Of a DNA stretch of 64,000 nucleotides, positions 23,479-43,363 are shown piece after piece; position 1 is the first letter of the stretch, and every line of letters starts with the position of its first letter. The stretch comes from Planctomycetota bacterium (GTDB taxonomy: Bacteria; Planctomycetota; Phycisphaerae; Phycisphaerales; UBA5793): assembly GCA_013112555.1 (NCBI GenBank), contig JABFGK010000002.1:620001-684000 (forward strand), read 5' to 3'. Made by a program: the position numbers and the translations under genes. The notes below the pieces were generated by a model, which did not search any database, was not told the DNA's origin, and worked only from the letters and a program-made list of their open reading frames with translations.

Positions 23479-24180
23479 TTATTGCTTCTTGGCTTGCCGA
23501 TGCTGCTTGACAAGACTATCAACCAACCTTGTTGATCCCGAAGTTAGACGCGCCAGTACTCTAAGTTGATCAAGAATATGCTCTGCTGGCTGGTCGTCTT
23601 CATATGCTAATGCGTGTGATGTTTCACCCCACAACTCCTCCGACAAAGTACGTACCTGCAACTCTATAGTCACTGGCGATGCCTTCTTCGGCTTGAGGGC
23701 ATAATGTACAGAGGTATACATCGACTTTCTTTCTTCAACTTTCACCCGCAAATCGCCAAAGAATGATCGATACTCGATGTCCCACACATGGGCAATTGGA
23801 CCCTCCATTATGGCAATCTTTTCGTTGGCTAGTATATCATCAATTATTCCTTTCATTTCCCTATACTGCTCCATGTGTATGTGCAACACTCGGATTCCTA
23901 CGTAATCTTTGACAAACAAATGAACGTTCTGCGTATTAACTAGTGGGCCAGCCGTCCGACGTCCCTTCAGCATGACCCTCTTGAGCTTCCGCTCAAGTCG
24001 CTCTACAGACTTTACTCGCATTCGCGTTGAGTGTATGTATCGCCTTAGTATCGTATTATCAGCGAAAGCTTCAAGTAGACCTTCCGCAAATCGCACATAA
24101 TGCTGCTCGTCTCGCTGAAACTGACCAAGACAAGCATCAATAGTCTTACTTTCAGATGCAGTAAGGCGCTGCCTGCCCAT
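23479..24180 (-). CDS. RelA/SpoT-domain protein (single-domain (p)ppGpp synthetase-like)
   Basis: 'TRMRVKSVERLERKLKR' (RxK-S), 'DYVGIRVLHIH' (DxxGxR), 'MYTSVHYALKP' (YxSxH), 'IELQVRTLSEELWGETSHAL' (ExQxRT...ExxH). No HD hydrolase domain. Confidence 0.87.
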   Translation of the reverse strand: MGRQRLTASESKTIDACLGQFQRDEQHYVRFAEGLLEAFADNTILRRYIHSTRMRVKSVERLERKLKRVMLKGRRTAGPLVNTQNVHLFVKDYVGIRVLHIHMEQYREMKGIIDDILANEKIAIMEGPIAHVWDIEYRSFFGDLRVKVEERKSMYTSVHYALKPKKASPVTIELQVRTLSEELWGETSHALAYEDDQPAEHILDQLRVLARLTSGSTRLVDSLVKQHRQAKKQ

Positions 24181-25253
24181 TACCTGCCCCTGCTCCTACC
24201 CCTCCCACGACCCGACACCTTCTTGCTGCGCAAAGACTTTGAAGGGCGCGCCACCTTGCCCGTTCCTAAAGTGCCCCCTGCCAGTCGTGCGATATTGTCT
24301 GCCATCGTGCTGAATGTTGTCGATGCATCGAGGCGGTGGTCTTCATTGACGCTTCTGATTTCCGAAATCGGCTTGCCCTTCTTTTGTGCTACAGTGACAA
24401 TTCTGCCATACTCCATTACTTGCTCTAGCAGACAATTTGCCACATTATCTCCTGAAAGAGACTCGTCAACCTCACGCAACTCTCTCATTATGTCGCTGTA
24501 CATTCGACGCTGTATATTGCGCAAGAACTGCCTGGGAATTGCCCCCATCTCGCGGCCATATGTCTTGAAGCGCTGTGGGATGTACCCAAGAAAGTGCGGT
24601 TTACCAGGCAACAAAAGGGCTCCTGCAGGTGCAATTGTTGTAATTGTCTCCCAGTCTATGATCCATGTTCGAAGCGTTTGCCCCAAGGTTCGCAGTGCTC
24701 GCGCGGAAAAAAGATCGCACGCAACGGGAATTATGAAATGGTCGCTATCGAGCAGAAGGACCCGATTCAGTGCACCGATGTTGGGGCCAGTATCATAGAA
24801 GACATAGTCTGCCCCCAGTTCCTCCGCAGCGGCCTCGACAACCTGGCTGATGCAACTTGTGGCTTGAATTGCGCCAATGCGACGCTTAAAACAATCGGTC
24901 CATGAGTCAAAAAGGAACTCTTCAAACTCCGTCATGCGGATGTCGCCTGGAATAAGGTAGACATCCTGACGTATCTTTTGTGGTTGGACTAGCTTGGGTG
25001 GGCCAATGCCGTTCACTACAGGCCGAACTGCAGACCACAGTGTTTCCCCATTAGGAGAATCCGATTTATCTAACAGGCGATCAACGGTATCATCCTTCAA
25101 TAAATAGGCTGTTAGGTTGCATTGAGGATCGGAATCAACAAGAAGAACGCGCCGGCGCCGCTTTGCAAGGGACATACTTACATTTACAGTGATTGTAGTC
25201 TTTCCTACTCCGCCTTTGTGATTAAAGATCGACAAATGCTTAGCGCTGTGCAT
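24180..25253 (-). CDS. ParA/MinD-type ATPase
   Basis: Deviant Walker A 'NHKGGVGKTTITVN', 'LLVDSDPQCNLT', Walker B region 'YVFYDTGPNIGALNRV'; Arg-rich C-terminus. Stop/start overlap TAATG with the RelA/SpoT gene. Confidence 0.9.
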   Translation of the reverse strand: MHSAKHLSIFNHKGGVGKTTITVNVSMSLAKRRRRVLLVDSDPQCNLTAYLLKDDTVDRLLDKSDSPNGETLWSAVRPVVNGIGPPKLVQPQKIRQDVYLIPGDIRMTEFEEFLFDSWTDCFKRRIGAIQATSCISQVVEAAAEELGADYVFYDTGPNIGALNRVLLLDSDHFIIPVACDLFSARALRTLGQTLRTWIIDWETITTIAPAGALLLPGKPHFLGYIPQRFKTYGREMGAIPRQFLRNIQRRMYSDIMRELREVDESLSGDNVANCLLEQVMEYGRIVTVAQKKGKPISEIRSVNEDHRLDASTTFSTMADNIARLAGGTLGTGKVARPSKSLRSKKVSGRGRGRSRGR

Positions 25254-25265
25254 GCGAGTCCTGCT

Positions 25266-25916
25266 CTACTGTTTTCTAGAAGGGCGTTTGCGACTGTTTC
25301 CGCGACCACGGAGTTTCTTTGTCACTTCTCGGAGGCGCTCACGATCAGGCAGTACATCAACGTACTCCTCCCCAACCACAGTGATCTGCTTGGTCGATTT
25401 GGCACCTGGTGCAAGCAGCCCACGGCTAGCTGCGTTTTTTACTGCCTGTGTCGTGTTGGAAAACGGCACGAGTGCTGCCTCTGTACAGAGGGAGGTAACA
25501 TCTGCCGTCTTGAAGAATCGCTTTTCACGGTAGTGTGTTAGGTAGTAAGCAAGACACACTGCCTTCTCGATGTCTGTCTTGGGCGATTTCTGAGACAAGA
25601 ATTGCTTAGGCGAAAGGTCTTCATGCTCGGTGAAGTGCTGCTGTCGACGTTGCACTACAGATGACTGCCCGGAAGGTACTAGGCGGGTAGAGCGATCAGA
25701 AGGAGAGATCGCTAGACCAATACTCTCATCGTGTCCAAGAAAGACGCGCACTGACTTCAATATCCTGCTTTGTGTAGCATGCGGAACAGTACTAAGCAAA
25801 TTGAGCACTTGCTGCAGGACAGCAAGGTCACGCCGGGCGTCCGGCCCGCTCAGACTCAGCGCCTCGGTGTTGGCATCGTCGGTGTTTGTCGTCATGTCGC
25901 TCTCTTGTTTCGGCAT
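25266..25916 (-). CDS. Hypothetical protein, predicted winged-helix-like C-terminal half; first gene of the operon (start may be internal)
   Basis: 216 aa; 'DIEKAVCLAYYLTHYREKRFFKTADVTSLCTEAALVPFSNTTQAVKNAASRGLLAPGAKSTKQITVVGEEYVDVL' looks helical plus wing; 12 bp upstream of parA-like gene; basic C-terminus. Confidence 0.75.
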   Translation of the reverse strand: MPKQESDMTTNTDDANTEALSLSGPDARRDLAVLQQVLNLLSTVPHATQSRILKSVRVFLGHDESIGLAISPSDRSTRLVPSGQSSVVQRRQQHFTEHEDLSPKQFLSQKSPKTDIEKAVCLAYYLTHYREKRFFKTADVTSLCTEAALVPFSNTTQAVKNAASRGLLAPGAKSTKQITVVGEEYVDVLPDRERLREVTKKLRGRGNSRKRPSRKQ

Positions 25917-25994
25917 AGTAGATCATAGTGCGCAGGTGCAGCCCATGCCAGAGGCAACGCCATACTCACTTGCCCCTGCCCCCCTCACCCCCCC

Positions 25995-40116: not shown

Positions 40117-40248
40117 GGTTTTCGAGACGATGGTAGGGATGCATACGGGGTCACAGGGGGGGAAACGGCCTGTTTTGTTGCCGTGTGGCATAGTGGGGCT
40201 ACACTCCGGGCAATAGCCGGCACGATCATGTGTCTCAGGCCCCTTTTT

Positions 40249-40335
40249 GGAGAGGTGACCGAGCGGCTGAAGGTGCACGACTGGAAATCGTGTGTGCGCG
40301 AAAGCGTACCGTGGGTTCGAATCCCACCCTCTCCG
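40249..40335 (+). tRNA. tRNA-Ser (anticodon GGA)
   Basis: 87 nt; acceptor GGAGAGG/CCTCTCC, anticodon stem-loop CACGA-CTGGAAA-TCGTG, long variable arm, GTGGGTTCGAATCCCAC T-arm. Confidence 0.97.
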
Positions 40336-40460
40336 TTATCGCGATTCACAATCGACTCCCCATGGGATTCGAGCACACAGTGGACCATGCGCAGCATGAG
40401 ACACGACGTGGGTGCGACGCCGAAGGCGCCGTGACCACGAATCCCACCCTCTCCGTTATC
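40318..40460. repeat. 23-bp direct repeat of the tRNA-Ser 3' end (40318-40340 and 40438-40460)
   Basis: cgaatcccaccctctccgttatc occurs twice, 120 bp apart. Confidence 0.93.
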
Positions 40461-40505
40461 CCTAGAGTTGGTGTTTCTGAGCCACTGCCTTGTGAGCAGT
40501 GGTGT

Positions 40506-42185
40506 CCGCTGCGCCAGCGATTTGGCCTTGACGGGATGGGCGGATCGAGTTACATTGATAGTGTGATATTGCGGGATAAAGACGCCAGCACCGGGTGGAC
40601 CTCGCAGGCAGACGCTCTGGACGAGGTACGCTATTACTGCCAGAACTGGCGGGCGGACGTGTCCGCAATAGTCACCTCAGGGGGCTATATGGTCGAATGG
40701 ACCAAGTACTCGCCGTACGGCATCCCCTTCGGGCTGCCGGGAGCCGATACCGACTCTGACGGCGACTGCGACGCCACCGACATCACCCAAATCCAGACCT
40801 GGATCGACGGCTCGTCCTACGACGTGCGCGGCGACGTGGATCTCGACGGCGACGTGGACTCGACCGACAAGTCGATCGCCCAAAGCAACTATCAGGGCAC
40901 GACCAGCGGCTGGAACGACCTCACCGCCATCGGCAATCGCACAGGTTACGCCGGATACGAGTGGGACGGTGTGGTCAGCATGTACCACGTTCGCCACCGA
41001 GTTCTGAACCCCGTGCTGGGACGATGGACCCGAAGAGATCCGCTGGGTTTCACAGGTGGTTTGAATATGTACACGTACAGCGCCGGTGTGATATGGAGGA
41101 ATGATCCCATGGGGCTCCTCTCGAATTCACAAGCTTACACGTGCAGCGCATGCTATATCGAGTTCAACACAGAACCTCTCAAGTGCAGTTCAGGAAAGTG
41201 CTCCAATCCGGCCACTGGTGGTGGGGCGCTCACAAGACTGACCTCAGAATGGGATTGTCAAGCCGATTGCGAAGACAGATGGCCTGATGACCCTGCCAAG
41301 CAAAACGCGTGCAAAGGTGGCTGCGATGTCGGCGGCGGTTCCCACACGTGCAGCGCCGGATGCACAGAGCTATACGAATCGGGATCAGAATCATGGAGTG
41401 CATGTGTCATGTCATGTAGGCGTGTGCGTAAAGGAGGAGAGGTAGACTACGGAACCTGTGACATTAACAAAACGAATTGCGAAGCGAATTGTGAGAGCCA
41501 AGTCTCCCAATGTAAGTCAGAAGAAGGAGACCAAATCATTATGGGTGCGAGCGGAGGTGTCATAGGCGTTACAGGAGGAATCCTCCTTTTCTGTGGCCCC
41601 CCCGGGTGGATCATAGGGGGTTGTCTTGCGGCTGGAGGGATCATCATCGAGTGTAGCATTCCGGTTGTCAATACCCAACAGAACAAGGACTGTGATGCCT
41701 GTGGCGACCGATGCAACAACTACTGCAATTGTCAATATGAGGTGTGCATAGGCGAGCGTGCCTCTGACAGTTGCAAGTTTCGAGCAGGCTGTGGGCTTAC
41801 CAAACCGCCATTTTGGACGATCGCGTTATGGCATAATGCCGAGATTCCTCAAATCGGCAGAGCACTCTCAGCGGCGACAGGACAAGGAGTGGACCTGAGT
41901 TGGAATCTGCGGTGTTGCCGCATTATCCATATTGGCTGTCACCAGGGAGGAGCAATTGTGGCTGTACTCCGAACTAAGCCATACCATCACATTGCTTTAT
42001 CGTTTGAGTCTCTCAAGAGCTCACACGCCTCGTATGCGTGCACACATTCTGCCACGACGCCCATAGGCCGGAGCATTCTGATGAATTGTTTCATTTTCAC
42101 ATGTAGGTGTGTGCGAGTCTGGTCAACGGTATCTGTGCTTGCACAAGATAGCAGATGCAACTCGAGTATTTCTCGCAATAGATAG
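40506..42185 (+). CDS. 5'-truncated RHS core protein with dockerin-like insert and Cys-rich C-terminal tip
   Basis: 'YSPYGIPFGLPG...[DTDSDGDCDATDITQIQTWIDG...DVDLDGDVDSTDKSIA]...YHVRHRVLNPVLGRWTRRDPLGFTGGLNMYTYSAGVIWRNDPMGL' RHS core; the tracked ORF reads through the tRNA gene, so its upstream part is not real coding. Confidence 0.8.
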   Translation, partial: PLRQRFGLDGMGGSSYIDSVILRDKDASTGWTSQADALDEVRYYCQNWRADVSAIVTSGGYMVEWTKYSPYGIPFGLPGADTDSDGDCDATDITQIQTWIDGSSYDVRGDVDLDGDVDSTDKSIAQSNYQGTTSGWNDLTAIGNRTGYAGYEWDGVVSMYHVRHRVLNPVLGRWTRRDPLGFTGGLNMYTYSAGVIWRNDPMGLLSNSQAYTCSACYIEFNTEPLKCSSGKCSNPATGGGALTRLTSEWDCQADCEDRWPDDPAKQNACKGGCDVGGGSHTCSAGCTELYESGSESWSACVMSCRRVRKGGEVDYGTCDINKTNCEANCESQVSQCKSEEGDQIIMGASGGVIGVTGGILLFCGPPGWIIGGCLAAGGIIIECSIPVVNTQQNKDCDACGDRCNNYCNCQYEVCIGERASDSCKFRAGCGLTKPPFWTIALWHNAEIPQIGRALSAATGQGVDLSWNLRCCRIIHIGCHQGGAIVAVLRTKPYHHIALSFESLKSSHASYACTHSATTPIGRSILMNCFIFTCRCVRVWSTVSVLAQDSRCNSSISRNR

Positions 42186-42214
42186 ACTCAAGCACTCGCA
42201 CACGGTGATATCAG

Positions 42215-42589
42215 ATGCCAAATCGTATGAAGCGCTGCCCTTCAAAGTCGACATTTAGACTCGCTCAAGGTGTTCTGATAATTGAGCATGTAGTCTTTAC
42301 ACTGATAGTCTTGTGGCGTGGAATCGGTGGATATGAAAGAATGGTTACTTGGCCTATTGTTGCCTACCACGCCTTGGCGATGACAGCTTGTATTGTGCTG
42401 TATTTTGTGCTGGTAATAAGGATTCGTAGGGCACTGTGCAAGTATTCATACATGATGTGCGTGCAATGCTGGTATCCGTTGTATGGCCTATGTGAGCAAG
42501 GTCGTTGCCCTGAATGCGGGCGGCACTACACCCGCGGCGAAGTAGTGACGTACTGGAGGAGACGGTTTTTTGTTCGGGAACTTGATTGA
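42215..42589 (+). CDS. Small membrane protein with C-terminal CxxC...CPECG zinc ribbon
   Basis: 124 aa; two predicted TM segments; 'CVQCWYPLYGLCEQGRCPECG'. Confidence 0.65.
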   Translation: MPNRMKRCPSKSTFRLAQGVLIIEHVVFTLIVLWRGIGGYERMVTWPIVAYHALAMTACIVLYFVLVIRIRRALCKYSYMMCVQCWYPLYGLCEQGRCPECGRHYTRGEVVTYWRRRFFVRELD

Positions 42590-42754
42590 TTAGCCCACTT
42601 ATGGGCATTTACCGGGGCTATAAGCAAAAGTTGTGGATGGAGGCGTGAATGAAAACGGCGGCATACTCTGGGTTTGTTGTAGTTGCTGCTGCAAACCCCC
42701 CAGCGGCCCACGCGGGCCCGGAGTACACCACCATGACAGAGACTATGACCGTGG

Positions 42755-42946
42755 CCTGCTCCCTGAAAACTGATCCAGCCGTTGTGAGAGTCCCGATGAC
42801 CTCTCTTCGAGCCTGAGCCTCAGAGCCGAAGGCCGGCAGAGGTCAGATGAAGAGTCTCATAGACAATGAAGCGCAAACGACACAGCCCGGAACAGATCAT
42901 TACCAAGTTGCGTGAGGCTGACGCGATGCTGGCCACGGGAGCGACG
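42755..42946 (+). mobile_element. IS3-family left-end remnant with start of orfA
   Basis: 'tgaaaactgatccagccgttgtgagag...' then MKRKRHSPEQIITKLREADAMLATGAT, the typical IS3 OrfA N-terminus, cut off at the Rhs sequence. Left boundary approximate. Confidence 0.6.
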
Positions 42947-43363
42947 ATCGCCCAGAGCAACTACCAAGGCACCACCAGCGGTTGGAACGATCTCACCGCC
43001 ATCGGCAACCGCAAGGGCTATGCCGGCTATGAATGGGACGGTGTGGTGAGCCTATACCACGTACGGAATCGCGTGCTGCACCCGGTCCTGGGACGATGGA
43101 CACGAAGATATCCACCCGGGTATTCAGTTCGTGGATACTTTGGCAAACAAAAAGTGGAGTGTGGACTCTGCTGGAAAGAGGGAGGTGGCCTCGCTCCAAC
43201 CATTGACTGTTCAGTGGGTTTTGGGGGTAGTATACGCCCCGGCCCCTTCGGAAAGGGCGGCAAGGGCAGCAAGGGCCTGATGCACGGCGATGTCGGCGGC
43301 ACTGTCTGCTTAAAGTGCACGAGGCGTCTCTGTCCTTCTGACGGGAACTACTATTATGTATGA
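42866..43363 (+). pseudogene. Chimeric ORF: IS3 OrfA N-terminus joined to a displaced RHS-core fragment and short tip
   Basis: Sequence from 'IAQSNYQGTTSGWNDLTAIGNRKGYAGYEWDGVVSLYHVRNRVLHPVLGRWTRR' parallels 40506-42185 ORF. Confidence 0.75.

Follow-up and report, generated by a model that had tools for sequence, protein, structure and literature searches.

Overall, we found that a small alarmone synthetase gene and the ParA-family ATPase gene before it form a real, conserved and mobile two-gene module. Because the pair is conserved and mobile across phyla and sits at a phage-defence hotspot in E. coli, we think it most likely to be an antiviral system that has not been catalogued. The operon described here probably arrived by horizontal transfer as an anti-phage module that works by abortive infection, in which the ATPase would act as the sensor or gate of the synthetase effector. 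If this is true, partition ATPases and alarmone synthetases are joined in an immune pathway across bacteria and archaea, and the presence of ParA-like genes as lone cargo in many prophages would have a possible explanation. The E. coli copy makes a direct test possible.

The operon and its three proteins

The window, i.e. the whole 64-kb stretch of DNA analysed, contains the operon as three genes on the minus strand (Table 1). The first-pass annotation had given the gene positions and strand, and had described a 12-bp gap and a TAATG stop/start overlap (of one base) between the genes; all of this was exact. It had also described the stretch as richer in AT than its neighbours and located between metabolic genes. 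Indeed, no other 2.4-kb segment of the 64 kb has a GC content as low (0.500 vs a mean of 0.599, sd 0.027), and by reading the open reading frames we identified a sugar ABC transporter, an amylase-like protein and a beta-lactamase-like serine hydrolase as neighbours; the surroundings are metabolic genes and not a defence island, which speaks against the anti-phage reading. A search of the window found neither long flanking repeats at the operon nor a tRNA beside it. Empty-site synteny was unusable as a sign of recent insertion, because the relatives of the flanking transporter in the family genomes were only 36-40% identical and the other flanking gene had no relatives there. Sigma-70-like sites were no more numerous than in shuffles, and the promoter match upstream of the operon is suggestive only. 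Elsewhere in the window, a tRNA-Ser lies next to a stretch of low GC content in which fragments of RHS-like repeats occur, possibly a small island.

Table 1. Coordinates of features in the window and in other loci (L numbers)
Feature	Sequence	Position	Strand	Evidence
Single-domain small alarmone synthetase, 233 aa, putative effector	Window	23479..24180	-	PF04607, E 8.8e-11
ParA/MinD-type ATPase, 357 aa, putative sensor or gate	Window	24180..25253	-	PF13614, E 2.1e-27
Winged-helix protein with basic C-terminal tail, 216 aa, optional third gene	Window	25266..25916	-	AlphaFold2
Possible promoter (weak sigma-70-like match) immediately before the operon	Window	25922..25951	-	9/12 matches
tRNA-Ser (40248-40336) and adjacent low-GC stretch	Window	40230-43363		
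Synthetase with methyltransferase-like C-terminus	L087	5953-7377		
SIR2_2 protein	L113	2353-3255		Pfam
SIR2_2 protein	L129	6988-7878		Similarity to L113
SIR2_2 protein	L139	3416-4282		Pfam
HEPN_RiboL-PSP protein	L131	7022-7549		
HEPN_RiboL-PSP protein	L162	7017-7613		
HEPN_RiboL-PSP protein	L136	7063-7734		
Nucleotidyl-cyclase-like protein	L137	7062-7733		By eye, no Pfam match
Nucleotidyl-cyclase-like protein	L173	1617-2300		By eye, no Pfam match
Schlafen/AlbA-like protein, ParA and PglZ in a row	L110	4761-9299		Resemblance to L172 (Schlafen/AlbA-like); PADLOC, 2e-281 (PglZ)

The synthetase had been read as retaining the synthetase motifs and lacking a hydrolase, and both points were borne out. 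Pfam gave a RelA_SpoT match and no HD hydrolase domain, and R55, K57, D92, R97, Y155, S157, H159, E173, R177 and H189 were invariant among 79 sequences. With the synthetase domain, the catalytic residues and no HD hydrolase, the protein is a single-domain small alarmone synthetase. Its AlphaFold2 model had a pLDDT of 95. The nearest solved sequences and folds were those of RelP and RelQ, and CapRel was distant. In the PDB profile search, the E values were 2e-13 for RelP and 0.07 for CapRel, and the matches listed included neither a FaRel2 nor a PhRel2 chain; the protein was thus not a recognised toxSAS-type sequence (CapRel/FaRel2/PhRel2). Since the synthetase is nearer to RelP/RelQ than to CapRel, its product need not be the toxSAS tRNA modification.

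The second protein is an ATPase of full size whose catalytic residues are conserved; it matched AAA_31 in Pfam and has the deviant Walker A motif KGGVGKTT. The closest solved chain was 3pg5 (E 7.7e-30). For the 216-aa protein, searches of Pfam, NCBIfam, PADLOC and PHROGs gave no match. An AlphaFold2 model based on a five-sequence alignment placed a winged-helix core between residues 103 and 203, most of it at a pLDDT of about 80-88, and Foldseek returned weak generic DtxR/MarR-type HTH matches for this model (best E 0.11). Basic tails had been pointed out in all three proteins. The tail is conserved in the winged-helix protein only; those of ParA (SGRGRGRSRGR) and the synthetase are not shared with their relatives.

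Conservation and mobility of the ParA-synthetase pair

About 85,000 species genomes were scanned with the synthetase alignment alone, which carries no information on ParA, and the best 80 loci were taken. The ParA gene immediately preceded that of the synthetase in 78 of the 79 judgeable loci, L064 being left out as cut by a contig end. The exception was L087, where the synthetase has a methyltransferase-like C-terminus and no ParA. The two genes overlapped, abutted or lay at most 20 bp apart in 71 of the 75 measured pairs, and the two-gene loci showed no recurring third gene. More than 10 bacterial and archaeal phyla were represented among the best 80 loci, the hosts including Pseudomonadota, Bacteroidota, Bacillota, Poribacteria, Acidobacteriota, Myxococcota, Verrucomicrobiota, Bdellovibrionota and archaea. 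The pair was absent from the 60 relatives that were searched.

Conserved co-occurrence of the triplet had been named at first as a check. It holds for the ParA-synthetase pair, and the winged-helix gene is confined to a minority branch: among the loci examined, its homologues lay upstream of ParA only in L020, L023, L054 and L096, and the family (five members including the window) was seen with one ParA branch only. Therefore, the system is the pair, and the three-gene form is rarer. In a ParA tree of 127 rows, the 68 two-gene ParA proteins formed one clade (support 100), while the ParA of the window and four relatives formed a separate clade marked by the winged-helix gene (support 99). This second clade was nested in a 14-row group together with prophage ParA proteins without a synthetase and three more synthetase-paired ParA proteins. 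The starred branches of the tree require the synthetase label to have changed at least twice, so the pairing of ParA with the synthetase probably arose on more than one occasion.

Each of the six viral contigs that the synthetase query picked up carried the pair as prophage cargo, and further viral contigs with the pair were found by the ParA query. In E. coli, the pair was present in 7 of 5,426 genomes, annotated as "ParA family protein" and "RelA/SpoT domain-containing protein"; one P2-prophage copy spans NZ_CP053787.1:1454564-1456347. In the two of these genomes examined, it was located between the P2 replication endonuclease gene (gpA) and the portal gene, a region published as an anti-phage hotspot (PMC9122126). 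The nearest neighbours of the pair elsewhere included AbiEi, AbiTii, KwaB, GajB, LmuB, PD-Lambda-1, type IV and IIG restriction enzymes and a reverse-transcriptase system. By contrast, the neighbours in a control set were mainly kinase and mads matches, among the matches listed. This control was drawn from other phyla than the pair set and compared by the top 25 families per set; in this qualitative comparison of the families listed, the defence matches among the neighbours of the pair were the more specific ones.

ParA relatives were also found in other settings, including P22-like Salmonella phages and the filamentous phage Pf1. Many of the prophage ParA proteins (L122-L175) read KGGVSKTT instead of KGGVGKTT. 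Directly downstream of some relatives, we observed SIR2_2 proteins (on viral contigs) that resemble Thoeris ThsA, or HEPN_RiboL-PSP proteins; downstream of others lay nucleotidyl-cyclase-like proteins, each kind of partner being seen in two or three loci (Table 1). In one further locus, a Schlafen/AlbA-like protein, ParA and PglZ lie side by side.

Proposed mechanism and alternative explanations

In the anti-phage reading, a phage-derived trigger or foreign DNA would change the ATP- or DNA-bound state of ParA, and in the branch of the window the winged-helix protein may help in DNA or operator recognition. ParA would then license the synthetase to pyrophosphorylate a purine nucleotide or tRNA, and growth would be stopped before the phage matures. 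The RelP/RelQ-like sequence makes a purine nucleotide the more likely substrate. An ATPase-gated alarmone effector had been put forward at the outset. This core idea withstood the refuting conditions named with it, as ATPase and synthetase co-occur, the catalytic residues are kept and no catalogued system matches. The three-gene system has given way to a pair, and the argument from basic tails in all three proteins has fallen away.

The pair could also be a toxin-antitoxin system: the synthetase would be constitutively toxic, ParA would neutralise it, and mobile elements would keep the two mainly for addiction. We consider this unlikely. The overlapping bicistronic genes, the synthetase effector and the mobile distribution agree with it, but ParA was interrupted beside an intact synthetase in five loci (L002, L022, L030, L083 and L085), compared with one clear reverse case (L082). 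Some of the broken copies could be sequencing errors or decaying loci. Moreover, ParA is complete in size, its catalytic residues are conserved, and related ParA proteins occur alone. Because there are loci in which ParA is broken but the synthetase is intact, a role as activator or licensing factor is more likely for ParA than one as a simple or sole antitoxin. An apparent decay in L090 was set aside: the contig belongs to Gracilibacteria, which are known to read TGA as glycine, and by tblastn both ParA and the synthetase align over almost their whole length.

If ParA instead served the partition or maintenance of a mobile element, the synthetase would be hitch-hiking cargo. The fold, the PHROGs label "ParA-like partition protein" and the prophage location would fit, and of a ParABS system the operon does have the ParA-type Walker ATPase. 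However, an adjacent ParB and centromere repeats are missing: the usual place of ParB is occupied by the synthetase, the third gene had no ParB match in profile searches of the family libraries, the two-gene loci share no recurring third gene, and the window contains no repeat array suggestive of a centromere. Together with a pairing that is near-universal across chromosomes, this leaves a partition role very improbable. Hardly probable at all is a housekeeping regulator of stress or the cell cycle, in which ParA would report the state of the nucleoid and tune (p)ppGpp. The intact synthetase is close to RelP/RelQ, yet the pair is patchy and mobile, missing from the searched relatives and placed at a prophage hotspot in E. 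coli. A PF04607 search found no other RelA_SpoT domain in the host genome and none in 57 of the 61 genomes searched in its order; the control search found the domain in 11 of 14 named genomes. Since the host and most of its order relatives have no other RelA/SpoT domain, the operon is unlikely to serve a stringent response in this host. Should the synthetase make a nucleotide alarmone, the host may have no way of clearing it.

Comparison with known systems

No model in PADLOC 2.0.0 (2023) covers most of ParA or the synthetase, consistent with the first-pass impression that no described system matches. ParA matched only about 40 residues around the Walker A of PDC-M28B, the synthetase of the window matched nothing, and that of E. 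coli matched only PDC-S33 (3e-5). Literature text searches returned no paper in which a ParA ATPase is linked to a RelA/SpoT protein and no published phage assay of the pair; a listing in supplements or newer catalogues is possible.

Among synthetases, RelP and RelQ are housekeeping enzymes and the closest solved relatives, but the gene in the pair is mobile and in an operon with ParA; to our knowledge, neither RelP nor RelQ is coupled to a ParA gene. The toxSAS pairs (FaRel2, PhRel2 and PanA-paired) are likewise bicistronic, with a synthetase and a partner. The partner here is a ParA/MinD ATPase and not an antitoxin of the PanA/DUF4065, PAD1 or aTfaRel2 type. CapRel is a fused toxSAS anti-phage protein with a small alarmone synthetase fold, carried by prophages (PMC9712102). 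The pair shares with it the prophage carriage and this fold as a phage-defence effector (putative in the pair). On the other hand, it has no fused or adjacent CapRel-type antitoxin but a ParA ATPase, and in the profile search its synthetase matched CapRel far more weakly than RelP.

The partition ATPases ParA/Soj and MinD have the same fold and deviant Walker A as the ParA of the pair, which differs in having an enzyme as its partner and no ParB gene or centromere repeats. More broadly, we tentatively raise the possibility, somewhat short of an even chance, that one ParA family generally senses phages inside the cell and can be combined with different killing partners (alarmone synthetase, SIR2 NADase-like, HEPN RNase-like and perhaps cyclase-like and PglZ), the window being the winged-helix version of the alarmone branch. 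The idea that ParA-type ATPases serve in phage defence is made more plausible in general by GiPD474, a solo ParA-like ATPase of a Salmonella Gifsy prophage that is experimentally anti-phage (PMC12724215). By its published description, GiPD474 is like the ParA of the pair a prophage AAA_31/ParA-like ATPase. It differs in being a single gene with no synthetase, for which phage resistance is proven.
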